In this document: positions 24,873 to 46,100 of the stretch, one piece after another
Layout: the number at the start of each line of letters is the position of its first letter
Numbering within the stretch: position 1 is the stretch's first letter
The notes under the pieces: generated by a model
The model's input: the letters and a program-made list of their open reading frames with translations, nothing else
Told to the model about the DNA's origin: nothing
The model's database searches: none
Translations under genes and position numbers: made by a program
Source: Tetracentron sinense
Taxonomy: Eukaryota; Streptophyta; Magnoliopsida; Trochodendrales; Trochodendraceae
DNA length: 64,000 bases
NCBI GenBank assembly: GCA_015143295.1
Contig: CM026567.1
Location: 15,270,416 to 15,334,415, forward strand
Reading direction: 5' to 3'

Positions 24873-24925
24873 ATATCTGATGCTACGTCGACGATTCCAA
24901 GTAGTAAGACCACTTCGACCGTCTA
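24873..24925 (+). pseudogene. Copia gag fragment, 5' piece
   Basis: Reads SDATSTIPSSKTTSTVY in frame up to the solo LTR. The reading frame resumes after the LTR at 27523 with one copy of the GTCTA target duplication removed, so the two pieces were one gag fragment. The expected initiator codon is ATA (24873-24875). Confidence 0.7.
24921..24925. repeat. Target-site duplication GTCTA (left)
   Basis: GTCTA at 24921-24925 is repeated at 27518-27522, directly flanking the solo LTR. Removing the LTR and one copy restores a continuous gag frame, which independently confirms the insertion limits. Confidence 0.9.
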
Positions 24926-25228
24926 TGTAACGCCCCAAAATCTCATCTAAGCTAAAGATGGAGCTTTGGACCCATTACACTGCTTATCTTGAATTAACCT
25001 TAAAATAAGAAAGGAAATACTAAAATATGAACCTGAAAATTTCTTCTAAACATGCATATAAAATCAAATATCTACTATGACAAGTCTATCTAAAAATCTA
25101 ACTCTGGGATAACCGGATCATTTCACATGATCCCAAAAAATCAACAAGTCAACATATGTATCGACAAAGTAAAACTATAAGTTAAAACGAGTCTTTATTA
25201 CAACTTTTTATCATCCAAAGTCTAACAC

Positions 25229-25369
25229 CTAATGATAAGGAAAGCGGTCGAGGTCTCGAGTTCCCTCCTCGGGAATGTCACCTTTTTCCTCCACTATGCA
25301 ATCTTCTTCTAGCCAAGGCTCCACTGGTATCTCAGAACTTGAGTCTGCCGACATGAAAACATATTGGCT
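25229..25369 (-). other. Conserved short open frame inside the solo LTR
   Basis: The minus strand reads SQYVFMSADSSSEIPVEPWL, then EEDCIVEEKGD, and ends DLDRFPYH followed by TAG (25229-25231), about 300 bases before the LTR end. The LTR at 43814-48966 has a matching acidic frame at 44101-44238 ending ELDHFPYY and stop, about 290 bases before its end. Both are preceded by an acceptor-like pyrimidine run ending ACTCAG. Roughly half of the residues match over 45 positions. I do not recognise the peptide. Confidence 0.6.
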
Positions 25370-26796
25370 GAGTAACAAAGCTCGATGAATATGAACTCCT
25401 AACTAGCAATATCAGAAGCATCAAAATGACATAATCATATAAGGATATACAATTATCAATGTGAACAAGTTTATAATAGCAATTCATATGAACAAGTTAA
25501 TCAAAGCAATTGAGCAATGTAAAACATACATTATTCAGAGTGCGAAAGCATCATAATCTTTTCGTCATTTCTTGTTCCTTATCTTATCTTATTCTTGTCT
25601 TCTCTTATCATGCTTTACTTTCTTTCTTTTCATGAGTCTTCATTAAATTCTCATTTTTCCATGTAAGCATAGCAACATGCATAATCATTATTAATAACTT
25701 AAAATAACTCTTCACTATATAGGTGAAAGAGATTACTATACTCTACTTCCCGTATACCAACTTTCGCACTTTCTCCGGTGCTCTCGGATTCACTTATGAT
25801 TACTTGACTTGGCACGCATGCCTTGATCTTAAACTTATTGGTTCCAGTCAAGTACAAAACTCATATGCAATTCCACATATATTGTTCTTGTTCTTGTGTT
25901 AGTGCTTTTATCTTACTCGTGCTTTCGTTATAATAGCTTGTAAAGAGTGATACACTTATTAGTTGAATAATGCTTTAGATCACTAATCTAGGTATATTCG
26001 GTGATCCATCATGAGCCCATATCATCATGATAAAAGACTAAGACTCGCTAGATTTAGATCCAAATGCTTATTTGCCCTACAATGCATCACTTCATTCAAT
26101 TCAAACAATATTTAACAATCACAATGACATATAAATTCATAAATTTCTATTACTAATCGTGCATATTCATTGTGCTTTAAGATTAGATTCACAATATCAA
26201 TGTCATCCTAAACTGACAATTTCATCATTTGATAAAGATAAATATGATAATTCAATATAGAGGTCTTAACATTTATATCATGCAAAACCTACATCATTTT
26301 CATATATTGTAACATAGAAGAAATATAAAGTTTAATTCATTACTTGCACATAACATCCTAACAACATTCATTCATAATTTTACAACACAATCCATCCATA
26401 ATAAATCTCTTCCATCATTTCAAATCCAAACATGTATCTCATCCACCATTTCAAATCCAAACATACATTCCACCCACCATTTCACAACAATAACAACAAC
26501 AATATTAGATAGGCATTTCTACAATAATCATTACCTAATCTCATTCTAACATAGAAACTTAGTATTTAAACTTTAAAACCTCAATGGTTCATGTCATTGA
26601 TAGCAAGGAGGGTATATTTACTTGCTAAAGTTTTCCCTCTTACCCCAAATGCTTGGAACTCTTCCTTGGAGAAATCTTCAAGCTTCAATCTTCTTTCTCT
26701 AAGCAAAACCACATTCAAACCCTAACTTCCTCCTTCTTCCCCTTCAAGATTAGGTTTAGAATCAATTAGAACCAAGAAACCCTAAACTTAAAAGCC

Positions 26797-26804
26797 TATT
26801 TATA
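26797..26804 (-). promoter_or_regulatory. TATA box of the solo LTR
   Basis: TATAAATA on the element strand, within CCTATAAATAGGC. The equivalent LTR at 43814-48966 has TATAAATA at 48358-48365, also a few hundred bases from the LTR start. Confidence 0.7.
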
Positions 26805-27522
26805 GGAGAGGGGGTTTAAAACACAAAAAAAAACACATTTTAACAATGTTGTCCCGCTATTGGCGATTGATCGCCCCATACAGGACTTCCCAATTTTTTG
26901 ACTTGAGATAGCCTTCGGTATTTTGGTTATAACTTTTGACTCGATTATCGGATTTTGACGATTCAACTTGCGTTGAACTCATCTTTTGAAGGGGAACAAC
27001 TTTCATGTTTTATGTAACTCCTAATTCGTAGTTTTAAAAGGTCTAAATGGGCTTTAAAGTTGACTAGTTTACAATTTCAGCAAATAAAACATTGGAAAAC
27101 CTACTTTTGACTTAACTTAGACTTAAAATCTGGAAAAACATGAACTTCGAAGAGGGTTTCAATACGGTTCTAATGATTCAAGAATCACTCAATTTCGATA
27201 AGCGTCGACAAAACTAAAGCTTCCTAAAGTTGAGGGTATACTAAGACATTCCTCTGGACCCTTGGTTTAATTTCATACTCCACCTACTTAGATTCCAACC
27301 CCTACTCATATCTCATGATTCAATTATCATATGTTTTAACCCATCTAGGTGATCATTGAACACCCCTTGACTCATACATTAAACCTACAACAAACTTAGG
27401 TCATGAGAAAACCTTCAAGATAACCAGTTATGTAAGAACACACGCATGAAGACACATGAAAGACTAAAACACCTTGATAAATTAGGCAATGACATGAAAA
27501 AGATTCGGGTCTCTATAGTCTA

Positions 27523-27650
27523 TGGTAATAATCCTAGTGTGCTAATCACAATCATTAAGTTGGATGACACCGACTTCCTTGAGTGGTCTCAGTCCGCTAA
27601 GATGTATATTGGTGGAAGAGGGAAGTTAGGATACTTGACCAGTCGAGTGA
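27523..27650 (+). pseudogene. Copia gag fragment, 3' piece
   Basis: Continues the fragment from 24873-24925 with GNNPSVLITIIKLDDTDFLE, then WSQSAKMYIGGRGKLGYLT. This is the N-terminal UBN2-type gag motif of plant copia elements. At about residue 60 it passes without a stop into a sequence unrelated to gag (next entry). Confidence 0.75.
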
Positions 27651-27760
27651 AAGTCGGCATGGTTCATGATCTTCGCATACTTGCGAAAACAGACTCGGAT
27701 AGCCGAGCTTGCATTGCGGAGGATGGTGCCATACCTTTGATTCAGTGCATCTGCGGCTAG
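27651..27760 (+). pseudogene. Fragment of a plant U-box/ARM-repeat protein gene fused to gag
   Basis: In frame with the gag piece, the sequence reads VHDLRILAKTDSDSRACIAE and then DGAIPLI before TAG at 27758-27760. This matches the ARM-repeat segment of plant U-box E3 ligases, where the pattern LAKTxxxSRACIAEAGAIPLL is strongly conserved. Only about 30 codons are present, and they end where the 600-bp duplication begins (27747). It is a captured gene piece, not a functional gene. Whether the fusion is transcribed cannot be seen. Confidence 0.6.
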
Positions 27761-28371
27761 ACTCGTCTTACGAAAAATATCAACCCACACTACGTCTGCA
27801 GATTTGCGGCGAGAGCATTGTCCATTTGAAAAATAATCACCTCCTCAATTAGTGATGCGAGGAGGGGCATCTCGGCTCCCCTTTTTCCTGCCACGTGTCC
27901 CCCTTTTATCTCTCTGTAACTGTGGTTAAAATTCACTCACCCCTAAGGTTCACTCATCTACCCTTAATTTTTTTAAAAAAAATTAACCTGAGTTCATGGC
28001 AGTTGAAGGGGTGGCTTTTTGAAAGCTGAGGAGCAACCGTAGAGTGAACTATTGCTCTTGTCCATATTCTCTTTGGCACTCGCCGGAGGGACCCGAAGCA
28101 TAAAAGGGAATAACTGTCCAGAATTTTGAGTTTTTTTTTATTTTATTTTATTTTAAATATAAGCATTCAAGTTAGACTAACATTAGCCATTGGATTTAGG
28201 GCCGGGTGTCAATCGGCTACATTTGGGGAAATCAACACAAAATCTATATCTATATTTATACCCATCTATATATAGAGAGAGAGACCCTAGTGAGGCCATT
28301 AAGAAAAAAAAAATTAAGAAATATTTTGGGTATATAAACTTAAGGGACATTTTGGATAAAAAAATTGTAAG
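27747..28371. repeat. Copy 2 of the ~600-bp dispersed duplication
   Basis: Matches 23951-24550 with scattered substitutions and small indels. It too contains the ACTGTGGTTAAAATTCACTC arm (27918) and TATATATAGAGAGAGA. The sequence diverges abruptly after TTGTAAG at both ends. Confidence 0.85.
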
Positions 28372-28512
28372 GGACGCGTTGCTTATAGAAGCATGACATA
28401 TGGACATTTTAAGAACTAAAAAGCTTTAGAAACATTTCGGGTATAGCAAAGAAAGGGGGCCGGTGGGGCTTTGGCAAAACGTTCTTCTTTTGGAGCGATT
28501 TGTTAAGAGCGA

Positions 28513-29111
<599 letters not shown>

Positions 29112-29432
29112 TGAAGAGTTGGCACTGGGCTAGCCGAAAATCAAAGTTTATCATAAGCTTGGTCTAAAATTCCTGAAAAATTAGCTTTTTATGATTACAT
29201 CGGCAATAATCCAGCAAAAGGGAGATTATTCAGAGCAATTTGAAGTCTAGATGAATGAGGGGTAGTATGGGAATTAAGTAAACATTCACTCAAGTGTTTG
29301 TCTTATATAATGATTACGATAAGGATAGTTTAAGAATTTTGAAAAATACATTTACGTCTTAAAAGGAATTCTCTAAAAAGATAAGATAAGAGTAAATGGT
29401 AGTTTTGGAATTACAAAAGATTCAATTAGGGG

Positions 29433-30189
29433 TGTATAGCGACCTGGAATTTTAATATAATAAAATTATGGGTTTATAGGTCCTTAACTGAGGTTAATCG
29501 GCTAAGTGTTTGATAAATTTGTGGAAAGTAGGTTTTTGTTCGGGACTGAGTTGTACTGATAAAATTTCAATTTTCTTCGAAAATCGCACACAGTGTGTTG
29601 GTCGATTATCGGGACGATCACCCGTCGTATCGGTTCCGTCGCACATCGATTCACGAGACCACGGGGGCCTTCTATGTAAGAAAATCAAGAAAACCAGGAA
29701 ATTCATAGATTTTCAAAATTCAGTTGGAACTCAATATTTGTTGGGTATTCTCTCTAAATTAATTGAACTTTCTCAACCAAAAATTCTATAAACTATTTTC
29801 TCTACTATTGTTCCTTATCTCCACTGCTCCCTGTGGACCGACAACCCTTTATTGTACTACAAAAGTACTGCATATTTTTGAGCGGCATCACTTAGTATAT
29901 AGATCAATTTTAAGCTTCTTTTAGGGTTTCTTTTATTTAAACTCAAACTTAGGGATTAGGTAACCATCTCATGATGAAAGTTTAGGGGTGCCTAACACCT
30001 TCCCCCAACTCAATTGAATTCCTTACCCTGACCTTTGACTTCTAAGTCATACTTTATCCAACCATCTTAGGGACCTCATTTCTCTCAGAATTATTATAGG
30101 TGACGACTCTCAACCCATTTGCGATTTATTGTTATTCCTTTTCAGGTTCAATCCTGATCAGGAAGAGGAGTTAAAATCCCGTGCTTTCA
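29433..30189 (+). mobile_element. LTR remnant of a gypsy element (Tat/Athila-like end)
   Basis: It starts TGTATAGCGACCTGG. The 3' part shares GATTAGGTAACCATC, GGGGTGCCTAACACCTTCCC and GTTCAATCCTGATCAGGA with the confirmed Tat-like LTR at 61110-61350, in the same order. No target duplication was found, so the right edge (TTTCA, 30189) is approximate. Confidence 0.55.
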
Positions 30190-30970
30190 GTGATAACCTA
30201 AGATTATGGGTGAATGAATAAATCAAACATTCCTTAATTCATTATCACTTGAAAAGAAATACATATTCTAATAAAACTGGTTCAAATACCAATACAGTGG
30301 GGTGTCTGGCAGTCACAAACTAGCTACCATTAAGAGTTGTGAAGTTCTATGCAACTACTAACGTTTATTCTAAAAATTAAGGAGATTGCTCTTAGAACCC
30401 AAATCAAATATTCTACGAATGAGAAATCACAACCAAAACAATCCAGGTTCACATGACTAGGGATTTCGATTCTACAAGATGCAAACAACTATAACCAATT
30501 TACACTATCAGTTTTCTCAATAGTAGAAAATACAAAGAATGTACAAAAATTCCAAACTAATTGTGAGATCCCAACATGAACAACATTTAGAAGAAGGCAG
30601 AATTTAGCCCAAATTTAGTGAAAGAAAATGATAAAAATTAAAAGCCCAAAAATATCCTATTCTAGGTTTTCGTCCACAACTTAGAAGCAACATACACCAT
30701 CACTTAAAAAAAACCAGACCTTTTTCAAAAACCTATCAATGTAAGGTTTCTGGAGAAAAATGGCATAACTTCAAAACATCAAAGGGAGAACACAACCCCA
30801 ACCATCATCTTTCTGTGGGTTTTAAACACTTCGAATTTTCATTATGTCTGAGCAAACAATATTCTGTGTTGGAACAGATTTTAGTACACAAAATTAAATA
30901 TGTTATTGCAGTGTCCGTTGTATACTGGAACTAAAAATTTTTTTTGGGTAGTTTTTTTATTTTGAGATTT
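30190..30970. other. Unassigned AT-rich interval
   Basis: No gene, repeat pair or transposon terminus was recognised here. Confidence 0.4.
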
Positions 30971-30974
30971 TTTT

Positions 30975-31246
30975 TCCCCATAATGCCTTTGAGGTTGCCA
31001 CGTGTCCTTATTAATACCTCTTAATTGTGGTTAAGATTCATCCACATATCCTTGGTTCTTAAAAAAAATATCAAATTTCTTTTCGAACCCTAGTTTAAAA
31101 TTCATTAACACCTAAGGTTAAAATTATTTAAATATTAAAAAAAAAAACCAAGGATAAGTAGGTGAACCTGAGATTGGGTGAATTTTAACCATAGTTAGGG
31201 GTGTCAATAGGGACATGCGGCAACCTCAAGGGCATAAGGGGACTCC
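30975..31246. mobile_element. Foldback MITE related to 28513-29011
   Basis: The left arm (CCCCATAATGCCTTTGAGG, then TTGTGGTTAAGATTCATCC) pairs with the right arm (GTGAATTTTAACCATAGTTA, then CAACCTCAAGGGCATAAGG). It is more diverged than the 28513 copy. Confidence 0.7.
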
Positions 31247-31844
31247 ATTGGGGGCCACTATTCATACCACTGCACTAAGAATTTTCAAAATATTTGGGGA
31301 GGCCCCTGTCCCGCCCCCTGGCTCCGCCCCCTGTAAGGACGAATATAATTTAGAGATAGTATTGCCTACGCATCGGATCTCTGCTTGCTGTGTTCGTTCA
31401 ACATAAAGGAATTTGATTGGGTTAGTTTTTTAAGCTCTTATCAAGAGCTTCAAATTCGTAGACTACCCTGCAACGCCATAACATCAAAACGAACAATGCT
31501 ATTCATGCTATGTTTTTGTTTTTTCTTGTCTAAGAGAAGAATTTGATTGAGTTTCATTGATGTGCTCTGGTGAGGTTAGGGTATCTAATAGGATTTGTTG
31601 CTCAGTTCGCTCGTTTGTATAGCTCCTGTTATAAACCCTCTCACCCTTTTATAATGGGTCTAAAACGTAAATGCCCCTCAGACGTGCTTGATCTGCTAGA
31701 TCCATACCCCTTCTGTGTGTAGTGGGTCTAAAAAGTAAACCCTCTCACCTTTTGATAAGTTGTCTAACACAATGGCCCATAATCCTTCTCTATGTAGTGG
31801 TTTTCAAATAGCACAACCCGAGTAGGATGCTTGATCAACTTACA

Positions 31845-32110
31845 TTTTTTTTTTTGGGACCGGATAGTGTCCCAAAGCCTTCGAGCCATGGACTAGTCCC
31901 TTCGGGTATCCGCATCGACTCACTCGAAAATTTCAAAATGTACTGAAATTTGGTTAGTGGTATTTCCCAAGTCAGGAGTGAAAAATTAATTAGTTTAAAG
32001 ACCCTCAGAGCAGATTCAATAGCCCAGGATCCCATGTTCAAACACATTTTAGATGTGATGTGGGATTCAGTCTTGTTCAAAACCAGACACAACCCCAAAA
32101 TTCTATATGA
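31845..32110 (-). mobile_element. SINE-like element
   Basis: A T-run at 31845-31855 is the poly(A) tail on the minus strand. Upstream on that strand are ATACCCGAAGGGACTAGTCC and a tRNA B-box-like GTTTGAACATGGGATCC (near 32029-32045). It resembles tRNA-derived plant SINEs, but the 5' end and target duplication are unclear. The open frame across it is incidental. Confidence 0.45.
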
Positions 32111-32724
32111 TTATTTTGTGGTCAACTTTATCATAAAGATCCAAAGAAATCAAAAACAGTTCTGAACTTGAGAAACTGGTATCTATTCCTATACCCAATT
32201 GACAATAGGAGAATGATTTATGAACTAGAGTTTAGAGGACATCTACTGGTTGATTTATAAATTAGAGTTCAAGAACATATACTGCTTCACAGCCGCATTT
32301 GATGCTTTGTAATGCCAAGAGCTTTATTTGGTGGAGCAGCTGTCGGCTGCTGAATTGGTTTTCATTGTTGTGGTTATTTTGTCTATATGTCCTCTGACAA
32401 GGCTCGACTAGTTCTACGATTTCTTATTGTTTGTTACCTTCTTTTAAAGAGAAATTGATTTCTTAATAATAATCTTGGATGATGTCCAAGAATCCTAAGA
32501 GGGTTTAAATAATATTCCAAGACGCCTAATATAGAAAGATCTTTGAAAGATAATCCTACTCTAATCATATCAAATCAAATCCTATATTCAAACTTAATTG
32601 ATAATATCAGATACATTGGTAATGATGCAGTGTATTTCACAATTCAATGTGAGTTTCTTTCTCTTTTCCCTACAGAATATGGATCTGTTATGCTTGAGTG
32701 TGCTCGGTGTGAGTTTTCTCTAAC

Positions 32725-32775
32725 CTGACCCAAAGGGTTGGGGACACCTTGAGTTCCAAAAAAAAATAAAAAAAT
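32725..32775 (+). mobile_element. SINE 3' end remnant
   Basis: TGACCCAAAGGGTTGGGGAC, then ACCTTGAGTTCC and a long A-rich tail. The same 3' end occurs on the minus strand of the SINE at 55670-55863 (ACCCAAAGGGTTGGGTACAC). The 5' part is missing. Confidence 0.5.
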
Positions 32776-34020
32776 TTACCACTTGGAGGGTTGATGCTCA
32801 TAAGCTCAAGTTTTCCATTTATCCCATTTTTGTTTTTGATGATAATCTGAAAAGGTAGGCAACCCATTTTTGTTTTCTTCTTCTCCTTCTTGGGTCAAAT
32901 CCTTTTCTCCGACCCCGAATCAAACCAGATAGAATCCTTTCCTAAAAAAAAAAAAGAAACAAAGAAATGGAAATCCTGATAGATCGGCGCTTATGAATAT
33001 CAGTATATCACAAATCATTCTTCGATTGTTTGCTATGGAAGCATGGAAACCCTCATTTGCCAAGAAGAGAAATCAACCGAAGCAAACACCTGGATTAGGA
33101 GGGGCCTTGCTTTAGGTTTTTAGCTGAAAACGATAGGTAAGGAAAGGAAGGAGGAAAAAGAGGACAATTTTTCCTTTTTATTTTTATTTTACGCTTGCAT
33201 GAATTTTTCTCAAGTTTGGTGTATGAGTAAAAGTTGGGGTGCGTCTAGCACCACCCTAAAAAAAGTATTGTTCTAACGTTACCAATAAAAGTTAAATAAT
33301 AAACTCATTATTCTAATGTTAACTTGGTTTAAAAAGTATCGGCCAAACAAGTATGAAATGCATACTGATTCATGGGTTGTTTTCAAGTATGAAACGTCTA
33401 TTGTGGGTTGTGCATACCATATTACTAAGCGTAGTAGTATTTTGTTCTTTTACTAATATTGTGCAAATGACATATCATACTCTCATTTATGGTAGCAATG
33501 GACACGTTCAACAACTCACCCTAGCAAGTGAATGATAGTGGGAGATCATGAAAAAATACTATGTGGTCTCTAGAAATTGGTAAATGTTTGGTACTACAAG
33601 CAAATAAAGGCTTGGAGATAGATAAGGGTTTCAAAGAGCACCTCCTACACAGTGACCCATGAGGCCATGACAGAATGAACTCCAAATTCGGGTTGTACCT
33701 TTCAAAGCATCATATCATAAACCGAATGAAGGCTATGCTGAAAAAGTATAAGGCAATTAAGATGTTCCTAGCTTCCTGGATTTGCTTGGAATGAAATTTT
33801 AAAGACAACTGAATACTATGATGAGGTTTGGATGAAATAAGTTGTCGGTATACATCTCTTTACGTTTCTGTACTTACTACTCAAGTTCATAGTTAGTCTC
33901 TTATCATTATAGTGTCGGTAAACAAATTTCGGGGCATTTGTAAGCTTCAAAACATCTGGGTATGGCTCAATATCAGATAACAAATCAGGTATCCTAATAA
34001 GCCCAAAACAAACACCCCTC
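32776..34020. other. Unassigned interval with an isolated TIR-like end
   Basis: No gene was recognised. At 33236-33262 the sequence TTGGGGTGCGTCTAGCACCA is the inverse of the terminal repeat that begins the insertion at 38298, so a fragment of the same element family lies here. The rest is AT-rich. Confidence 0.35.
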
Positions 34021-34170
34021 CTCTTGTGCTAATGGCGGAGTGTGAACTCTCTCAATAAAGAGGCTTTAGGATTCAATCCCCGAGTGAAGAGTAGCAAGAG
34101 CTCCAACCATTAACCCTTTATTAACGTAGGTAAATGATATCCTTAAAAAAGAAAATGAAAAAAAACCCAA
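34020..34170 (+). mobile_element. Candidate tRNA-derived SINE
   Basis: TGGCGGAGTG (34033-34042) fits an RNA polymerase III A box and GGATTCAATCC (34069-34079) fits a B box. An A-rich tail (AAAAAAGAAAATGAAAAAAA) ends near 34165. The box spacing is slightly shorter than in a tRNA, and no target duplication was confirmed. Confidence 0.4.
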
Positions 34171-35640
34171 AACAAAAGTGAAGTGATTGGTACCATCGAG
34201 AGCCTTTGGATTGAAAATCAATGATGTCAGGGACTCAGGCCCACCATTTAAAGCATGTGCACCTTCGCACAATTGGATATTCAATCCAACGGTCCAGTAG
34301 GTACTCGAGATTTTTTTTTTGGTCTTTATTCTCGAGATTTTTAATCACTTACCAAACAGAAAACCACTAAGAACTGTCATGGCATTTACATCTTCTATCA
34401 TCTTGTTTTGCTTTCGTTGGCGCCAGTGTCAAAAGAAACTTCGGGGAAAGAGATGTCTTTCTCATAGAAGAGATAGAAGAGAAAATTCATCACTCGAGTG
34501 ATCGTTAAAATATTTCCAACACAAGGTCTTGAACGTATTCCTTAAACGGTTAAACCTATACCGTTGGATGCCATGGGATTCACACAGACGTCGATCCTGA
34601 TGAAACATCAAGAGGACATAAGCATCATACTTATACATTTTACACACACCATAACAGGAGAGTGTGAGGTGTCCAGCCCTCATTTGTACCTGACAACAGC
34701 GCGTAGATTTTGGCCGTCGTGTTTGTAAAAGAAACTACTTTGTTACTTCCTTCCGGAATCGTTAAATAGTTGAGCTTTGAAACTCTTCCTTTCTCAGTTT
34801 GCTTTAATATCTTCTCAATTTGCTCCAAATATCTCTGCAAGACTTTATGATCTCTTTCTAGCTTCTGTATGTATATATCTCTCCCATTTCATGAAATTCT
34901 TTCCTTATTTCAATTTCTTTTGATGGCTAAGCTATACTTGGTTTTGGATGATTTTTTTTCTATCATTTTGCCTATATGAAATTTCAGTCTTCTTTTTTTT
35001 CTTTTCTTCTGGTGATGTGGGGAGTGGTGGTGATGTTGATTTTGTCAAACTACAGAGTACAGAGTACGGACCAGACACCCCCAAAAAAGAAATGATTTTC
35101 AAACTAAAATTTCAGAAAGAAAGGGAAAAAAAGAAAATCAAACAAAGCCAAGGGTAGCTTAGAATACTCATGTTTTGAATATCCTACATTGGAGGTGGGG
35201 GGATGTTCTGTAATCTGTAGTTGGGAACTTGTGTTTGGTATTTCTTATGAAGAATTCGTTGATGGGGTTGCTAAATAATCCTGAAAAGCAGTTGAATTTG
35301 GTGGTTTTGTGAATGGGAGACTCAAGGGACTGAACTGGAAACTTTCCCAGATGATTTTACATGAATCATAGCCTCTGTTTTCGTTTCCTTTCCAAAATGC
35401 CAGAAATCTCATCCCTTTATTTTCGTGTTTGAGGTCTTTTCATTAGTGTTTTTGGGGAGAAACTCAGGGAATTATACTCCTAATATTAATTTAATTTCAG
35501 TGAATTTTAGTTCCGTAAGGTGATTTTCTGTTGAGAATATCTTCTGGAATTGTAGGGATTCGAATCGGGAACTTACTCCGTTAGCTTTCCATCACAATTC
35601 ACAAGGGAGCTCTGAACTGTGGATTTTGGTGAGGTAAAAT
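34171..35640. other. Unassigned interval
   Basis: Short open frames on both strands resemble no protein I know. The stretch looks like intergenic or intronic DNA, with T-rich runs and no repeats shared with the rest of the window. Confidence 0.35.
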
Positions 35641-35649
35641 TCAGAAAAC

Positions 35650-36390
35650 CTATAATTGTCCTTAATCTACTTCAGGCCATCCTTTTCTTTTTTATCTATT
35701 TGCTGAATATACAGGGAAGTGATTTTTCTTGGTTTTTGATGGCGCGTTTTGAGTCTTTTGACCGAACCCTCTGTGGTTGACGCGATGAGACCCACGTGGC
35801 TGTGCATCTATGGCCAAATGGTGTCAAAAGAGGATTACCAGTTCAACTAGGGCTCAATTCTAGTGATTTCTAATTTTGGAAACAAATCAATTCTCAAATT
35901 CCTAAATCTCAGAATGGGTTTTCTGATGAGAACCCATTTTGAAGAACAAGTACCACATAATAGTGTTTTGATGAGAAACATTCAAAATCATTGTAGACTA
36001 GTGATGATGGAGTGGGTTGGATGTGAAGGTATTGGCATGGGGGCGGGGTGGCAATGGTGGCCTGAGGTGGGGGTGGTAGTGAGGGTAGAGGTGGTGGTAG
36101 TAAGGGTAGAAGTGGTGGTGGCAATGGAGCTGTTTGGCATTACTCGGGGAGGGAATAGAAAATTGGAAATGCGGTTTGTATGCATTTTTAGAACAAAACG
36201 ATTCTTACAAAAGTTGTGCTTTTGGAAAGCGATTATGTCTTACTTTGATGATTAGAAGTCCAATTAGTGCTCAAAAAGCGATTGTGCCTTAGCTTGATGA
36301 TTAGCAGTCCAATTAGTGAGTTGAAGGGCGATTACTTGCGACTAATAGTTTGGACCGTGACCTAAAAGGTGATGGCTCCTTATAACATGT
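35650..36390. repeat. Copy 1 of a ~2-kb-offset tandem duplication
   Basis: CTTAATCTACTTCAGGCCAT at 35661 matches 37708. Similarity continues through GATGAGAC(C/A)CACGTGGCT to GATGGCTCCTTATA near 36370 and 39640. A GTGGTGGTAGT-type purine repeat (36030-36125) produces spurious open frames. Confidence 0.75.
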
Positions 36391-37689
36391 ATAAGCACCT
36401 CATTTTTCACTCCTATAGGGCCTACATGACCTCCTGTGACCTACCAGAGAATCCCAACATGGTGACCAAAGTTCTATTGACTTTTGTCAAAGTGATCAAA
36501 TTGCCCCTAAGTTAAAATTTTATCAAAATACCCCTGTCCTATTCACAATATCAATTTTATCATATCTTTACCAAAAAAATATTTGTTATGATAAAATTTG
36601 GTTTGTTGTAGACTAAAAAAGCTTTCAAAGATGGAGATTTGATTTTAGGCCGGGTGACATATATGTCACTCTAGTACTTAACCTTAAAAATTAGAGTAGT
36701 TTTAAACGACAAATCTCTTTAATTTGGCCAAAACCAGTTTAAAATAATTGCTAAAGTCTCGAAAGGGTTGTTTGGATTCAAAAAGAAAAACATCGAAAAC
36801 AATTTTTAAAAGGCTCAGTGAAAAGATGGCGATAGTTATTCTACTGCCAATCTGCTTTTGCCTAATAAACCCCTCTACCGGCACTTACTTTACGCTAGGA
36901 GCATATTCCCCTATATTTTCAGTTGGTGCTTCCCCTATATTTGCAGTTGGCGGTAGAGTATCCACCAACAACCGCAAATAGAAATTTCCAAAATTCGAAT
37001 CCTTCAAACCTGATTTAGAACCTTCCCTTTTCGGCACTTGAAATACCTATAAAAATCTCTCTTTGGGTCCGAATTTTAGACTTTCAACTCTCATAACTTC
37101 AAAAAAATTTTTTTTTTGAGGAAAATTATCTTACTAATTGGATGATTCAAGTAGAGAACTCTCTCATTTTCCTCTCCTTATTCTCCTACTCAACTCAAAT
37201 CAAGGAGTTGAGATATATTGCGAATTACATTATATCACACTGCAGCGGTCATAGGATTAATTTGTAGCAACATCGATGTGAGTGAACCCTTATATCTTTT
37301 CTCTCTCTCCATACTCTATCTCTATTTGCTCTATTTTATCTCTTTTATTATGATTTATGCATGAGGAGAATTTGTTATGAGAAGTTTGGAATGGTTTTGA
37401 AGTGCTTATTTTCATGTGTCATGACATACTTTAGGTTATTGTTTAATCTATGGTCTAAGGTCACATTATTCTTCTAACTTCAATAATGGGAGCAAATCTG
37501 ATAGGAATCACTTTAAATTTGGTCCCTAGTCCTGATTTAAGCCAGAGATCAGATCTGGCCACAGTAATTTCCCATTAGGCCTGTGTCCATTGTTGATCGT
37601 GCCTCGGTATGCATGCTAACTTTATATTATGTGATTGACTCCCTATCAAATTTTGATTTGCATGAAATTTGTAGGTGGCAATAACATTT
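36391..37689. other. Spacer between the tandem copies
   Basis: No gene was recognised. The stretch includes lone motifs such as TCCCCTATATTTTCAGTTGG / TCCCCTATATTTGCAGTTGG repeated at 36907 and 36933. Confidence 0.4.
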
Positions 37690-39650
37690 AAAAATCTATA
37701 ATTTTTCTTAATCTACTTCAGGCCATCCTTTTTTCTTTTTTCTCTGTTAGCTCAAAATATAGGGTAGTAATTTTCTTGGTTGTCAATGGCACATTTTGAC
37801 CCAATCCTATGTGGGTTGACATGATGAGACACACGTGGCTATGCGTCAATGGTCAAATTACACTCGTATCCAGAGACTCTATAATAGATTCTGAAACTAA
37901 AGGTTGCCTAGAGTCTAGATCCTCTTTGGCAGAAGCCAGAAAGAATGTCTCTGGTAGAAGCCAGAGAGAGCGTCTTTGGCTTTCACCAAAGAATGACTAT
38001 TATTTTTGAATTTTGTATTCTAAAAACTAAGGGTAGAAGTATCAACTCTAGGGGTTAAAGCTTTTTAGCCACAGTTAAAAGAACACGTGTTGAGTTGTGC
38101 AAAAGTGCCAGAGAGGATGTCTCTGGCTAATGGCTATAGCTAGAGACGATCCTAAATCAGGCGCCTATGGCAGAAGGTGCCTTAATGATTATCATTCTAA
38201 TTGGGGCCTATTTGGCATCAGTTCTAGTGACTCTCTAATTCTAGAAATGAATCAATTCTCCAATTCCTAAATCTTAGAATGGGTTTTCTAATGAGAAGGG
38301 TGGTGCTAGATGCACCCCAATAGTTGATAACTACACCCTATTATTAAATATTATTGAATGCACACCATTAATTTCATAAAATTACATGCACACACCAAAA
38401 ATATAAAAAGTATCTATAAATTTCATAACTACAATTATAATGGAAACTAGATACAAAATAAGAGGTGTCGATAAAAAAGATTTGAACATATTATTCTTTC
38501 TTTTTTGTAAGTGCATTATCAAGTAATAGGGCTAAAGTGAACGTAATATTGTACTTAAAGACTATGAGAGAAAAGTATAGCATACATAAAGAAAAGTGAA
38601 AAAGAAAAGTGAAAGTTGTTATTTGGATTGTACATAGAAAGATTGTTAGAATTATTTTACACACTGCTTTAAATGGATATCATTAGCTCTGTAACTCCCA
38701 CCACCTCTATCTCTCTAGAAGTAAGGAAAAGTTGAAAAAATTAAAACTAATCCTTTGAAGCATAGATAGAAAGAGTACTCACAAATGACCTTTCTTTGTT
38801 AACTCAAAATCAATCTCAAAGAGAAGTGCAAAATGGAGAAGGAGACATAGATTAATGTAAGTCTTGAGGTTGGGGTGACTTGTTCACTATGTACTCTTCT
38901 TTGAGTTTCTGAGGGCAAGGTGTGTTGAATGGAGAAGGAGCCGGAGAATGGAAGGAGCAGGAGATTAGAAAAGAAAAGACGTGAGGCTTTCCTGCCAAAA
39001 TTGAGAAGGGATTAGGTGGGGTGCGGCTATTAAAGAAGCGGAAAAATGAAAATAAGAAAATTATAAATGGGATGTAGTCATCAAATATTGAAGAACATTT
39101 GGGGTGCCGATGAGAACCCGTTTGAAAAAATTCAGTCAAAACCCATTTTGAAGAACATAAATCATGGTTCGATGAGAAAAATTCAGGATCATCATAGACC
39201 AGTGAGGATGGGGTTTGGTGGATGTGAAGATGTGGGCATGGGGATTGGTGGCATGAGTTGGCGGTGGTGGGGAGTGGTCGTAATGGAGGTAGTGGTGTGG
39301 GAGTTGTGGTGGAGGTGGTGGTAGTGGCAATGGAGTTGTTTGACATTACTATTGGGGAGTGAGTTTTATTCACTGGGAATAGAAAATCGAAACGCCGTTG
39401 GGATGCTGAGCTGAATGATTCCGATAAAAGTTGGGCTTCTGGAAAGCTATTGTCTTACTTTGATGATTAAAAGTCCAATTTGTGCTTGAAAAGTGATGGC
39501 GTCTTATCTTGATGATTAGCAGTCCAATTAGTGACTCAAATGTGATTGCGTCTTACCTTGATGATTATTACTTATTAGTCCTGTTAGTGGCTCAAAAGGC
39601 AAATACGTGCAGATGTTTGGACAGTAACCTAAAAGGCGATGGCTCCTTAT
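37690..39650. repeat. Copy 2 of the tandem duplication, with an insertion
   Basis: Colinear with 35650-36390 but expanded by the element at 38298-39107 and by extra sequence near 37870-38160. The GTGGTGG low-complexity tract at 39240-39335 corresponds to 36030-36125. A GAGACGTCTCTGGC-like degenerate repeat (CTCTGG/CTTTGGC) lies at 37925-38140. Confidence 0.7.
38298..39107. mobile_element. Terminal-inverted-repeat DNA element inserted in copy 2
   Basis: Absent from the equivalent site in copy 1 (35920). The ends are imperfect inverted repeats: left GATGCACCCCAA, then GATAACTACACCCTATT; right end complement GGCACCCCAAATG, then GATGACTACATCCCATT. ATGAGAA is repeated on both sides (38291-38297 and 39109-39116), suggesting a 7-9 bp target duplication. 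No transposase was recognised in about 810 bp. Confidence 0.6.
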
Positions 39651-39769
39651 ACCATGGTTACAGGGATCCATAATCCCAGCCATAGTAGTTCTGTGGGTCC
39701 TTCCATCCTTTCAAATTATATTTTTTGGGTGAATGAAAGGGATCGTGGTTTGAGGGGAAAGATAGAGGG

Positions 39770-40213
39770 TTAGTGATCAAGGTTGGTGCCATCACGCCTC
39801 ATCATGGTACATGTCATGGCGCCACCTTCATCAGCACACTTGGACAATATCGCTAGCATGGTCGCTGCATACACCTAGGGTAGCGGTGTGGAAAATTTGT
39901 CATTTAAAGCAGATGTGGAACATGAATTAATAATGGACCATTGTCAAACCACTCCGGATAACATCTCACGTACTTAACTACGCACTCTCGATCGTTACGG
40001 AAGGTACCTAGTGTCATGCTCCCTGGGGTCCTATTTAAAGGATAGACATACTCATTGATAAGATACCACAACAACATTAGACTCTACCTCAGTGATCTCT
40101 TCTCCAAATGTGCTCATTTCTCCCTTATTTAAGTTTAGGTTGATTATGCAACCCAGCTCATCATTGTTCTTGTCCACTTACTTAGCTGATTTAGTTGGTT
40201 ACTCCTGTTACAT
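39770..40213 (+). mobile_element. LTR 3' portion of a Tat/Ogre-like gypsy element
   Basis: The stretch contains a GC-richer leader with GTTACGGAAGGTACCTAGTG and a TATA-like CTATTTAAAGG (near 40030), and ends CCTGTTACA at 40213. It is followed at once by TTTGGTGACTCTGTTGGGGA, a slightly altered form of the TTGGCGACTCTGCTGGGGA primer site of Tat/Ogre gypsy elements. The left edge is not determined. Confidence 0.55.
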
Positions 40214-40236
40214 TTGGTGACTCTGTTGGGGAGGTG
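40214..40236 (+). promoter_or_regulatory. Primer-binding site, Tat/Ogre type
   Basis: TGGTGACTCTGTTGGGGA differs at two positions from the familiar TGGCGACTCTGCTGGGGA used by Tat/Ogre elements. It lies directly after the LTR end CCTGTTACA. Confidence 0.6.
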
Positions 40237-40329
40237 TTAACATTTATGGAGATCTATAGCTTCTAATAAATGGCACTCTAGCTCACTTCACCACCAAAAA
40301 TATTAATAACATTTTTTACTTTCCTTAAA

Positions 40330-40890
40330 TACAATAGGAAGGAAATGTTGGGACCACATTAGGGAGTTTATTGATGCTCTTGACATGTATGCTGCCAACC
40401 ATGAACTCCGCCTCTAGGAAATTTCAAAATCTTTTTTAGAGCAGTACAACGACCATTTGTTAGTGTTAACGAGATGATTAAACTGAGAGGAACAGAAGAC
40501 ATCAGAGGGACTCGCTGATGACGTCTGACGCTATGTGACCACATTCAAATGCCGGGATCCTATTATTATAGAAGATCTAGTTCAGACTATCAACAGGATG
40601 CTAAAGGAATTTTAGTTTCATCTTGAGAGCCTTGAGATAGTGAATCGCTCACAGCTCCATAAGCCACTCAGCAAAACAGTTAGTCTGTGGTTAGAGCAAG
40701 TGAACAAATATAGCGATGTGAGACCAAAGGAAATAGGGCGCAAGTTTGAGCCACTGCAACCACTGCCTCAAAGTGCCCATCCAAGTCTACTTCTAAGAAG
40801 TACAAATTGGAAGGTGGCCCAAAGGTCATGCTGCCCCAATTGGCGTGTCCCAAAGGTCAATCAGATCAAATCTAGTTCGGACTAAGCTAT
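40330..40890 (+). pseudogene. Degraded gag-like sequence of the same gypsy element
   Basis: Read through several stops, the frame gives ADDV-RYVTTFKCRDPIIIED and then LVQTINRMLKEF, followed by an open stretch MNRSQLHKPLSKTV (40640-40885). The position after the primer site and the helical composition fit gypsy gag, but no zinc knuckle is visible. It is non-functional. Confidence 0.4.
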
Positions 40891-40899
40891 ATAATCCAA

Positions 40900-42330
40900 C
40901 TTTATGTTGTATCCTATTTTCAAAAAAGAAAGAAAGAAAAAAGATCGGAAATTAAAGATCCACAAATTCAAACATTTTGGATTACTAAATTTATACGTCG
41001 TAATTTCTCAATGAAAAAATGTGGGCAAGGTTTCTATGTTTCAAGATTACTCCATTTCTCATTTTTTTTTATCACTTGCTTAAGGATAAATTTACCATGC
41101 ATAGGATGAGCAGCAATTGTGAAATGGGGCGGATTTGTTTTAGTACGACTTACATGTTCAAGTAATCTCTTTGTTCTTTTTATGAAAACGAATATCTTTT
41201 TATTTTCTTGAAACTTTTGTGTATATGTTAACTTATATGCCTTACCGATTAACTACTTGTATACTTTGTAAATGATTCCTATTTGTTCTAACTACTAACT
41301 ATTATCACTGACAGTGATTGTAATGAAACTTGATGAGCAGATCAACAATGCCAGTAATAATACAATTAAAAAAGATGGGTTTTAACACTTCCCCTGCAGC
41401 TAGTGAATCAATGCCAACCATCCCAAATTTTTCGGGTTTCTTTTTTGATAGGTTAATCATCATAGTTTGATATGATCATTCAATCTACTTTAGTATATTT
41501 TGTTACACTTAGAAAGCTGGGTTTGATGTGCTTCATTACACATGTGTACTGTACCTTTTTCATATGTTTTTTTTTTCATAATGCCCCTTTGTATTTTAGT
41601 GGGTACAAAGGGGCCCCTAACTTCAGCTTTACCTCTGTGGCCCTGTATCCATTGTCCACGTTAGCAAACTGTTAAGGCTACATTGGGAAAGTCTCTTTTC
41701 ACCTAAAAGCAAAATCTTTGTATGAGAAAGGTTGAATGTCACCCTTATTTGCTCCTTCTATCATGCGTGAGTTGAGGCGAACTCCAATCTTTCCTCAATC
41801 ACTCATTCCCCCTCCCTTGTGATTTAGGGCAAACCGTTCCCTTCCTCCATTTTCTCATTGGCTTTCTTGTACATTCTTAGTCCTTCAAGACGTATTTTAC
41901 ACTGGTTGAGGTGGGGTTCATAAAAGAATTTCAATGTCAAAGCCCATTTATACGCAAAAATAATTTCATTTAATTCAATATTCTTTCTAGTTTTTTAATG
42001 GATATGATTTTAATGCTGTTACGAAACTAAAAGAAGCTCAACTTCACCATTTACAGTTGAAAATGGAGTTTGTGAAGAGATGGAGAGAGAAAACCAACGA
42101 AGATCATGAAAATTGTCATTTACAGTCAAAATCGGCAATCAATCCCTAAAATCAGCTATCAGTTTCTAAGAAACGGCGATCCAATGCTAAAAATTACAGA
42201 TCACCAACTATTAGGGCTGGATCACCCAATTTTAGGCAATCGATTGCCAAGTTTTAGCACTGGGTTGCCCTTTTTATTGGTTGATCATGTATTTAGATTT
42301 TAGACTGTAAATAAAAAAACATGAGACCCC
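40900..42330. other. Upstream region of the plus-strand host gene, unassigned
   Basis: No repeats or proteins were recognised. At 42105-42260 there is a loose series of CAATC / ATCAGC motifs. The interval may hold upstream exons or promoter of the gene that starts near 42964. Confidence 0.35.
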
Positions 42331-42331
42331 A

Positions 42332-42369
42332 CACGTGTGGCTTTTCCCATGCATGTAGGGCTATATAAG
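42332..42369 (+). promoter_or_regulatory. Candidate promoter: G-box and TATA box
   Basis: ACACGTGTGG carries a G-box core CACGTG at 42332-42337, and TATATAAG follows at 42362-42369, a normal plant arrangement. The first exon of the plus-strand gene is about 600 bases further on, so an untranslated leader exon would be required. It could instead be a relic LTR promoter. Confidence 0.35.
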
Positions 42370-42963
42370 CAAAGTTGAAAAGTCACAGCCCCTTTATACC
42401 TTCCAAGATACATTAGGACCATTTTCAGAAAAATCGCTTCTCATGTTTATCAACTTCAGTTGCTGCAACTGTTATTTCTATGTATTGAACCTCAAAGCCT
42501 AATTAAATTGAAGTCCTATATCTCTCCTGCAAATATGTCTGAACACATACATACATACCATATCCTATTCAAATATATTAGCAATTTTGCACCCTGATCC
42601 TCTGCATCAATGACAGAAAGAAACACTTCATTCTAAATACATGATTTAATTTTTTGCGTCAGCCTCTGATAAGTATCCTAAAATCCATCTACCATATATA
42701 AACTCTAGAGAGCTTAGGATGAATCAAGATCCATGTATGACACATGTACTAGCACTTTGACCCAGAATTTCATTGTTAGCGTTCCTTACTCTTCCAAGGG
42801 AGGCACTGAGGGGTCTCTACTCTCTACTCCCCTCTTAAGGCAAGTTGGAGAAGTGACAAAAATCATTTTTGGCCCCACACACTTTTGCATGTGTGCAATG
42901 GCTATACACCATGTATAATACATACACTCAATATCTCTAGTAATTCTTTAGATATGCATATAC

Positions 42964-43137
42964 ATGTCGTTTATATTCATTACAGTTTCCACTTTTAATA
43001 AGGATGTTGTCCTCAACAATGCAGCTCAATACCTAAAATCTACGACAATGCTTACTTTATTACTTGTGCTAACTGTATGTTCGGCTATCCCCATTCTGCC
43101 TTGTCGGGTCGAACATGGAGAAAATGTGGAGGAGAAG
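42964..43137 (+). other. Exon 1 of the membrane-protein gene
   Basis: Encodes 58 residues from MSFIFITVSTFNKDVVLNNA to HGENVEEK. The donor is GAGAAG|GTATGA. The hydrophobic segment spans about residues 29-47. Confidence 0.6.
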
Positions 43138-46100
43138 GTATGAGTTTTCTCATTTGAGGATCTTGTTTGAAAGAGTTTTTTTCTCAGTCACAATCTTTCT
43201 TTTCTGAATTTCTTCTTCCAAACTAAGATATGGAAAATTTTGTTTTGCTTATAATAGGGTTTGGAAAACAATGCCAAGAATACTCCAAATGAGGAAATCC
43301 AAATAGACATTCCCAATCCAGTTTCTCTATGTGTTCGTTCACCATGTGTCACTCGACAAGTAATGGATACAAATACTTCCTTGAATGGACTGTCTGGAAT
43401 TTTGATGGATGAGGTTGATTACTGATATACGTCTCTTTTGGTTCCATACTTCTATTTGCAGTAAGGTTTAATTGGTAATATGTGTAATTCTGAAAAGATT
43501 CTGAATTTCATTATGACAGAAGGTGGTATCCAATAACAATAGTACTTCTACAGACCAAACAGAAATAGATACACGAGAAACTGCCATTCTACTTCATAAA
43601 ACACCAAATGAGAGTCAGGATTCCGCAGCTAATAATTTTCAGACTGGGCTTATTCGGGAGTCGATGGAAGAGGTACACTAATTTTCTTATTTTCAGAATT
43701 GACATAATACCATACACTCATTTAGGGGAGAAGAACATGAACCCCAAAACCATTTCTTATTGAAATGAGAAATCACTTCAATGTAGACCCACTCTCATTT
43801 ACTTCACAATGTCTGTCGCGACCCAAAACCCCACCTTAGCCAATATGGGACTTTGGATCGTAACATTTCTTAAAACTGTTCAATTCCATGGCATGAAAGG
43901 CAAAACTAACATAATCTCCAAATTGATAATTATAAAATTCGACATAAAAATCCAAACCATTTTGCACAAGTATATGCTCAAAGTAACAATATCCACCAAA
44001 GACATAAAAGGTCTAACCTGGTAGAACTCTAAGCAACATCAACCCCAATTGAAAATATGCCAAGAGGTCTATAACAATTTTCCCAAGATATAACAACTAT
44101 CTAGTAATAAGGGAAATGATCTAGCTCTCTCGCCTCCTCGGATAAAGGATCGCCTTCTTCCTCAACATCGTAAGCCTCCTCTATCCAAGGTTCGGCAACA
44201 CCCTCCGGCTCTAAACTTGCCAAGACAATAGTCTGACTGAGTACAAAAGCACTCGGTGTATATACAATCCAACTAAACATCATAGTAAGCCTGCATTTAG
44301 TTAGTATCATGATTAATAGCATAATCACAGAATTCATTAATCAGGGTGCGTAGAAACATGTGAGCATAATACTTCATATCATCATCTTGACTCGTGGACT
44401 TGTGAGACTCTTAGACTTTTGGGATATCGATGCTTATGCAATCATACACTTATGAGTATCATATGATTTTTGAGGAGCTTTACCAGGTGCAAATTGGGAT
44501 CATGAGATCACACACTTATGCACATACACATGCTTTTGAGCAGTCCTACCAGCTTATGCAATTGGAATCATGTGATCATACTGTGAGCACGGATTTCGAT
44601 ACCCACTGTTGATTGATTAGAGCCTCCACTTATTAATTCAGAAGGGATAAGTCCCGGGGTTATGGATAAGGTCTTAGTCTGCATTAGAGTTCTAAGTAAG
44701 AGCTTCAATTAAGTCCTAGGGAAGGTGTTAGGCACCTTGGGACCCTCATTTTACAATGGTTACCTACTCCTTAGTTATAAGCCAACTTAATGTCAAATTT
44801 TATTTAAATGCCTAGTTTTTAGATTATACTAATCCAAGAAAGAAAAAGCTAACTAGGGTTGAACCCGGGTTGGGTTGCCTACGTACTCACATAGGGTGAG
44901 ATCAAACCGAGTGTAGTTCTGACACATGAGCTCGTGCCAAGGTTAGGGGAGTGTGTGTGTGCACCGGGGTGGCTAAGGGTCTAGCCTGGGGGCTAGGGGT
45001 GGTTGACCGAGTTGATCAAGTGCATGGTTTGGGCCCGGAGGCCAAGGATTAAGCCCGAAGGCTTGGGGTTGGGCCCAGAGGCCAAGAATTAAGCCCGTAG
45101 GCTTTGGGTTGAGTCCGGAAGCCAAGGATTAAGCCCGGAGGCTAGGGATTGGGCCCGGAGGCCAAGGGTTAGCCTGGTAGGCTAAGGGTTTAGTCCAGTA
45201 GACTAAGATTGGGCCTGGAGGCGAAGGTCTAGCCTGGTATGCTAAGGGTCTACTCCGATAGACTGAGGTTTGGCCTGGTAGGCCAAGGGTAAGCCCGGTA
45301 GGCTAAGAGTTGGGCCCGGTAGGCCAAGATTGGGTTCGGAGGCCAAAGGGGTGCTTAACCGGAGTTAGCGGATGGTCTAACCATGGTTGACTAGGTCCAA
45401 ATTCAGTTTTATGGTCCTTTTTCATTTGTTGGCAATCTCAGGGGTTTTTCCGGATTTTCCAAGGTTAAAAATGGTCTTAACCACGGTTAATGAATGAGTT
45501 AACCATGGTTAATCCATTTTACCATGCTTAGGAATGCTGTAGGGTATGGTTTTGGCCATTTCCTGCATTTCAGACTTTTTAGGAAATTTCTGGGATTTTC
45601 CCCCCAAGGTTAGAGGCTTTAACCATGGTTAGAAGCTAACCGGGGTTGAGTTAACCCCAGTTAATAGTCTGGGTAAATCTGGAATGGGCCCAGGGAGCTT
45701 GGCAAGGCCTAGAATGGCCTCCTACCAGGTCTGGGCCCTGCAAGACCCACTATTTGAGAGAAGACTGGGAATGACAGTAATTATTCTATCGCCATTCTCA
45801 ATGTTGCATAGAATGGGAATGACGGTTGAAAATAACTACCATCATTTTGTATGTTCCAAGAACAGTGGCTTTGTAGCCTGCAAGGGGGTCAGGGTTAAAC
45901 CTCAGGGGTCATGGACCCTTAGGGATGGTCAGGGGACTTCCCACAAGTCTGGAGTCCGTTGTGGACCCTGTGTTTGATCTAAAATGGGTCCATAGTAGGT
46001 CTGTCATCACTGTAACAAAATGATGGTAATTATTCTACCACCATTCTGGACAGCTTTTAGTTTTAGCCATTTAAGCACGGTTAAGCAACTAGGGTTAACT

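Follow-up and report, generated by a model that had tools for sequence, protein, structure and literature searches.

Acidic peptide frame conserved between long terminal repeats of Ty3/gypsy elements in Tetracentron sinense: a candidate coding exon

Long terminal repeats (LTRs) are usually treated as non-coding control DNA; a retroviral accessory gene encoded in an LTR is sag of mouse mammary tumour virus (MMTV). Among plant retrotransposons, Tekay elements belong to the common repeats of seed plants. Plant LTR retrotransposons are described as carrying additional open reading frames (aORFs), which flank gag-pol on its 5′ or 3′ side within the region bounded by the LTRs; those on the 5′ side in Tekay elements of sunflower encode about 400 amino acids (PMC7264820, PMC11728184). 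Further papers describe introns in Ogre, EVADE and BARE, plant LTR retrotransposons being otherwise generally intronless (PMC12786077, PMC3735527, PMC6317226). A study of Del LTRs covers attachment sites and CpG islands, and the phrase “open reading frame” is absent from its text (PMC4029996). Searches of open-access papers turned up no description of an exon with coding function within the LTR of a plant element. Here, we analyzed a stretch of 64,000 nucleotides from the Tetracentron sinense genome (assembly GCA_015143295.1, contig CM026567.1, positions 15,270,416 to 15,334,415; hereafter the window), in which two solo LTRs each contain a short frame for an acidic peptide. The LTRs and their frames are as follows (names of families A to E are labels coined in this analysis):

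24926..27517, minus strand: solo LTR A, target-site duplication GTCTA at 24921-24925 and 27518-27522
25354-25229, minus strand: acidic peptide frame A, MSADSSSEIPVEPWLEEDCIVEEKGDIPEEGTRDLDRFPYH and stop, 41 codons plus stop, the stop lying 303 bases before the LTR 3′ end
43814..48966, minus strand: solo LTR B, target-site duplication ATGTC at 43809-43813 and 48967-48971
44223-44101, minus strand: acidic peptide frame B, LASLEPEGVAEPWIEEAYDVEEEGDPLSEEARELDHFPYY and stop, 40 codons plus stop, the stop lying 287 bases before the LTR 3′ end

A search of the window with peptide A (tblastn) identified frame B with an E-value of 1.5e-8. When all stop-to-stop frames of at least 20 amino acids were compared between the two LTRs (77 × 79 frames), this pair obtained the top score of 43.5 bits, the runner-up reaching 21.2, and the match is not due to chance. 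From the residues EPW to the stop, both frames comprise 30 codons without a gap, and the one-codon difference sits before EPW. Frame B is open upstream to 44340, without an ATG where frame A starts. A preliminary description, made from the letters of the window, had recognized the two solo LTRs, the matching residues and the one-codon length change, all of which were recovered: both elements show 5-bp target-site duplications and lack an internal region. Its estimates of about 45 codons and about 290-300 bases to the LTR 3′ end are replaced by the measured values above.

On the DNA level, blastn of LTR A against LTR B gave no match at 1e-10, and a permissive alignment yielded a 512-column segment with 60% identity that reaches the LTR 3′ end (E 4.6e-12) as well as a 61-column piece (E 0.005). 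The peptides are rich in acidic residues (peptide A has 13 D/E and 3 K/R among its 41 residues, peptide B 14 and 1 among 40), between which conserved W, Y and F are found, and the consensus of their end reads ...EPW(L/V/I)EE.Y..EEE(G/S)D....(R/K)(D/E)LD.FPY(.)stop. Acidic stretches with spaced aromatics bring activation domains to mind, which serves as a lead only. No Pfam family matched the two peptides at E ≤ 10, and no PDB sequence matched a profile of four peptides at E ≤ 1.

The tBLASTn search suggested in the preliminary description was performed in this one genome (1.16 Gb) and returned 150/150 scored matches each for peptide A, from 10,875 first-look candidates, and peptide B, from 10,965. 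Based on a hand count, 44 of the best 150 matches of peptide A and 28 of the best 150 of peptide B contain internal stops (106 and 122 are stop-free), a biased sample because the lists are ordered by protein score. In full-length elements, the 5′ and 3′ LTR alike carry the peptide. Among the local loci, profile and motif searches revealed two further LTR families with it, and perhaps a third: family C with two copies (L013 and L014; MSAGTEGALDPEPWVEEEYTEERESAIPLQSQADRDLDAWPYLDYC in L014), family D with one copy (L034; E-value of 0.0022 with the profile), and, less certainly, family E with one copy (L014), which was found via the motif preceding the frame and whose peptide retains PW.E and little else. 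A search of IMG/VR contigs with the peptide alignment gave eight pattern matches, none of which was confirmed by tblastn.

The host elements are Ty3/gypsy retrotransposons (Metaviridae), with the integrase located after reverse transcriptase and RNase H: Retrotrans_gag, RVP_2, RVT_1, RT_RNaseH, Integrase_H2C2 and a Tf2-1-like SH3 domain were detected in L009 and L011. They are probably Tekay/Del-type chromoviruses, as suggested by the primer site TGGTATCAGAGC and a chromodomain-like end of pol, where PF00385 matched at E 0.0022 and 18.3 bits, under the curated cut-off of 25.1. In full-length relatives, the primer site follows the LTR 3′ end. The minus strand, on which both frames lie, is the sense strand, as gag, protease, reverse transcriptase, RNase H and integrase parts lie on the same strand in L009, L011 and L012, full-length relatives of A. 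At the pol ends of these three relatives, the stop TAA is found inside a donor-like GAGTAAGG, followed by ATTTCGAGGACGAAAT; related subfamilies show GATTAAGG.

Comparisons between subfamilies point to selection on the frame. Among 27 A-like subfamily representatives, most of which had been found through their similarity to A in DNA or protein, the ratio of nonsynonymous to synonymous substitution rates (dN/dS) was 0.233 in frame (338 pairs) and 0.650 and 1.094 in the other frames. Divergence at third positions (0.32) was similar to that of the flanks (0.30-0.39), and first and second positions showed 0.21 and 0.16. Because protein retrieval favours conserved peptides, the analysis was repeated blind, using as query only the 284-base flank 3′ of the frame in L077. 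Thirty of the 40 resulting matches begin within 17 query bases, namely L077, two copies known from the protein search (L075 and L078, excluded) and 27 others; L112 and L127 were dropped as non-homologous across the first half of the frame, leaving 25 copies and L077. For these 26 sequences, in-frame dN/dS was 0.265 (325 sequence pairs, not independent of each other; codon bootstrap 0.140-0.447), whereas the two other frames gave 0.685 and 1.274 (p = 6.5e-4 by permutation of columns). The projected frame is free of internal stops in 15/26.

A deeper comparison covered the 30-codon stretch that begins at EPW and ends at the stop in 37 A-like and 21 B sequences, 20 of the latter being protein-retrieved. 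The proportions of synonymous and nonsynonymous differences were 0.750 (pS) and 0.254 (pN); as pS is near saturation, no ratio was calculated. Divergence by codon position amounted to 0.299/0.237/0.517 (p = 3e-4), transversions alone to 0.117/0.100/0.225 (p = 0.02), and dN/dS within B was 0.269. In sliding windows of 10 codons over three sets, the third-position excess ranged from -0.10 to +0.08 before codon -5 (counted from EPW) and from 0.02 to 0.29 inside the frame, and it was -0.015, -0.013 and -0.007 in the window starting at the stop; one later window past the stop showed +0.105 in the blind set. A flank-only search for B resulted in 41 matches, including 21 non-self matches that begin within 19 query bases; 14 of these directly adjoin one of the scored peptide B matches. 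From these sequence comparisons we conclude that about 30 codons were selected at the protein level between subfamily splits, while the elements moved.

The following features of the two LTRs bear on how such a frame could be expressed:

26796..26805, minus strand: TATA box CTATAAATAG of LTR A, shared by the majority of the family
48357..48366, minus strand: TATA box CTATAAATAG of LTR B, its place matching that in A
26620..26621, minus strand: GT of the candidate 5′ splice site of A, AGCAA followed by GTAAATATACC here and AGCAAG followed by GTAAATATACC in most relatives; putative position
48152..48153, minus strand: GT of B homologous to the A donor, GAGAG followed by GTCGATATACTATCC; poor donor match
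25368..25372, minus strand: CTCAG before frame A, candidate acceptor or branch-site element and 3′ half of a short inverted repeat
25345..25348, minus strand: GCAG, second candidate acceptor, at the end of TTTTCATGTCGGCAG
44237..44241, minus strand: CTCAG before frame B
25194..25199, minus strand: AATAAA, putative polyadenylation signal 30 bases past the stop of A; AATAGA in most relatives

The distance from TATA box to GT is about 180-210 bases in A and B. Most A copies read AAG followed by GTAAATATACC at the GT site; GTCGATATAC is found in B, L134 and L135, and AAG followed by GTTAGTACACCC in C. From the GT site to GCAG, we counted 1277 bases in A, 1148 in B (minus a nested insert) and 1136 in C. 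The GC content is 0.48-0.58 in the frame, 0.31-0.39 in the presumed intron and 0.31-0.40 in the 3′ flank. Just 5′ of the frame, an inverted repeat of the form C(C/T)GAG(C/T)-N6-9-(G/A)CTCAG was detected, with 4/4 pairs in 16/26 sequences. The acceptor-like sequence (ACTCAG) that had been described before both frames is there in both LTRs, where CTCAG was located. Neither CTCAG nor GCAG is retained in all copies and GCAG doubles as peptide codons 3-4 (by eye), so that conservation does not decide between the two as acceptor. Across 25 rows of the candidate first exon, 38 ATGs were observed versus 110.6 expected, 10 of these rows matching a wrong, later GT site; the remaining 15 rows hold eight ATGs in total, nine of them having none. 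This depletion supports a split-gene model without proving it. The TATA box, GT site, composition step and acceptor signals suggest, as the simplest reading, a short split gene inside the LTR.

A motif GTnnATATAC(C/T)(A/C)TCC is common to A (26605-26621) and B (48140-48153) on the minus strand, about 190 bases past the TATA box, although the GT of B is a poor donor; the motif may have another role.

In our view, several related Ty3/gypsy families probably have a genuine coding exon in their LTRs, about 30-40 codons long, which most likely forms the 3′-terminal exon of a transcript driven by the LTR. Transcription would start from the LTR TATA box. The first exon, poor in AUG, would measure about 150-185 nt and the AT-rich intron about 1.1-1.3 kb; the 3′ splice site would coincide with CTCAG or lie just past it, and the acidic peptide exon and polyadenylation would follow. 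The product could be a small acidic accessory peptide or an acidic tail of the element. Selection on the peptide kept the frame while the elements moved, and single copies would have decayed afterwards. The sequences establish the frame, its recurrence and a codon-level constraint that ends with the stop, whereas promoter, splicing, polyadenylation, translation and any role are predicted.

Several observations weigh against this proposal. In the family A set (38 DNA-retrieved rows including the window copy, 24/38 without internal stops or indels), changes on internal branches were distributed over the codon positions as 0.341/0.317/0.341, showing no position bias, and variation in the frame equalled or exceeded that in its surroundings. 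For the blind copies, the whole-frame divergence of 0.265 exceeded that of the near flanks (0.215-0.219, one flank being part of the query). Transversions alone followed the same order there with p = 0.09, and part of the third-position excess in this set may therefore stem from methylation-driven transitions. The GT site of B reads GTCGAT, a poor donor, and family C lacks the CTATAAATAG TATA box. None of the 21 B copies carries an ATG at the place of the start codon of A, and where family A relatives have the common donor, the first exon opens no frame into the peptide, so that use of the GCAG acceptor would leave the peptide startless.

The neutral picture within family A would fit decay after insertion, and random stops in single copies are expected of old dead insertions. 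Read against these points, the preliminary description was upheld in part, including its claim of conservation at the protein level, for which the blind dN/dS, the comparison of A with B and the periodicity ending at the stop all speak. Its statement that the surrounding LTR is much more diverged applies between A and B but not inside family A. Of the signs it had named for an unselected frame, dN/dS near 1 was not seen between subfamilies, whereas stops are common in single copies and codon-position bias is missing inside family A. The suggested last exon of a spliced LTR transcript agrees with the TATA box, GT site, composition step and acceptor signals, but less well with the poor donor of B.

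The alternative that survives best, although we regard it as unlikely, is a small open reading frame that starts from an ATG of its own within the long leader of unspliced genomic RNA, similar to an upstream open reading frame in the 5′ LTR, with no spliced exon. An ATG at the frame start is indeed found in 35/38 family A rows, 16/20 diverged A-like copies and 20/26 blind copies, and families C, D and E have it as well. Against this reading, conservation of the B peptide persists despite the missing ATG, and the presumed leader upstream exceeds 1 kb. Furthermore, five of the six ATG-less blind copies lost the G of the ATG, its third base being kept no better than the surroundings. The small element-encoded protein envisaged earlier could use its own ATG in families A, C, D and E, but not in B. 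As a source of the start codon, the first exon was rejected: in L012 its frame hits a stop one codon before the junction, and the window copy offers 33 open codons and no M. An ATG frame that reaches the GT site in the right phase in the B copy L135 (by eye) was taken as chance, being absent in L134 and in the window copy of B.

It is improbable that a constraint on RNA or DNA, such as a purine-rich splicing enhancer, a packaging signal or a conserved acceptor, merely mimics coding. A purine-rich GAGGAAGAAG-like stretch and the paired inverted repeat 5′ of the frame would suit such a constraint, but the repeat is outside the frame. Moreover, the low dN/dS is frame-specific in three sets, the periodicity halts at the stop codon, and between A and B synonymous sites are saturated while amino acids are conserved.

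We consider it very improbable that the frame serves Pol as an alternative C-terminal exon, in which case a donor at the pol end would be spliced into the 3′ LTR and the pol stop exchanged for an acidic tail. This idea draws on the pol ends of L009, L011 and L012 (TTCGA or TTTGA followed by GTAAGG), where the stop TAA lies within the donor-like site and in phase with a junction after CTCAG (L011 with an upstream frameshift). In the related subfamilies L020, L021 and L027, however, the site reads GATTAAG without GT, which rules out such splicing as a general model, and GTAAG is absent at the pol end of L043 and of the second L025 match. Plain shared ancestry of young LTR families with an unselected frame is hardly credible, for although family A taken alone looks neutral, the peptides of A and B are still alike at near-saturated synonymous divergence, and the blind dN/dS contradicts it as well.

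Going beyond the coding exon, we tentatively consider the possibility that the LTR itself is a complete split gene, consisting of promoter, leader exon, intron, acidic-peptide exon and terminator, whose peptide acts in trans for the element, e.g., in its own transcription or silencing. If so, each full-length element would carry two copies and each solo LTR one, amounting to a very large, partly decayed LTR-only gene family. If the coding exon is real, it would represent an accessory protein of these elements that annotation pipelines drop, solo LTRs would gain coding ability, and exon and junction would be directly testable in transcriptomes of many plants. Should Tekay elements turn out to share this exon in further seed plants, an entire class of proteins encoded in plant LTRs would have been overlooked.

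Further features concern the architecture of the LTRs. LTR A has TA..CA ends in the window, and the 5′ ends of both window LTRs (27517 and 48966, minus strand) read TATAGAG, whereas full-length relatives begin with TGTAGA; the TA..CA ends could have arisen by later change or represent a variant that is tolerated. LTR B contains a nested insert, which the preliminary description had left unmentioned:

44582..47369 (ends approximate), strand not assigned: nested insert TGTGAGCACGG...GTGCTTACA of about 2.8 kb, within the presumed intron of B

This insert is probably another LTR. It shows tandem GGCCCGGAGGCCAAG-like units at about 45030-45350 and CTAGGGTT-like repeats at about 47090-47300, and the 5-mers flanking it match poorly. 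Tandem units of about 50-65 bp (CAAGGAGGTTGGTAGCCCAGGGACATTCGGGTACTAGCC...GGCTCACAAG) were also observed in family C LTRs, within the presumed intron or close to it (L013:3200-3560; L014:4760-4900 and 7410-7680).

With regard to known systems, MMTV sag likewise has coding sequence in or reaching into an LTR, but it belongs to animal retroviruses and encodes longer proteins, and the likeness is one of description. In descriptions of Caenorhabditis elegans Cer1, its CERV protein is, as proposed here, an accessory protein from a spliced Ty3/gypsy RNA (PMC10309623, PMC12786077); compared by description only, it differs in acting in RNA export and in apparently not being LTR-encoded. Ogre, EVADE, BARE and Bagy2 resemble the present case, as far as their descriptions go, in that an intron alters which protein results; their introns separate or remove gag-pol or env-like parts, whereas the presumed intron and last exon described here would be wholly LTR-internal (PMC12786077, PMC6317226, PMC7264820, PMC3735527). 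The plant aORFs, as described in the studies cited above, share with our frames the character of an extra element-encoded frame outside gag-pol, hosts of the Tekay clade (probable in our case) and conservation over many copies, which in our case includes codon-level constraint. Unlike these aORFs, which lie between the LTRs and in Tekay encode about 400 amino acids, the frames described here have about 40 codons and end 287-303 bases before the 3′ end of the LTR itself, so that solo LTRs carry them. As a kind, the accessory frame is already known; its location within the LTR appears to be new.

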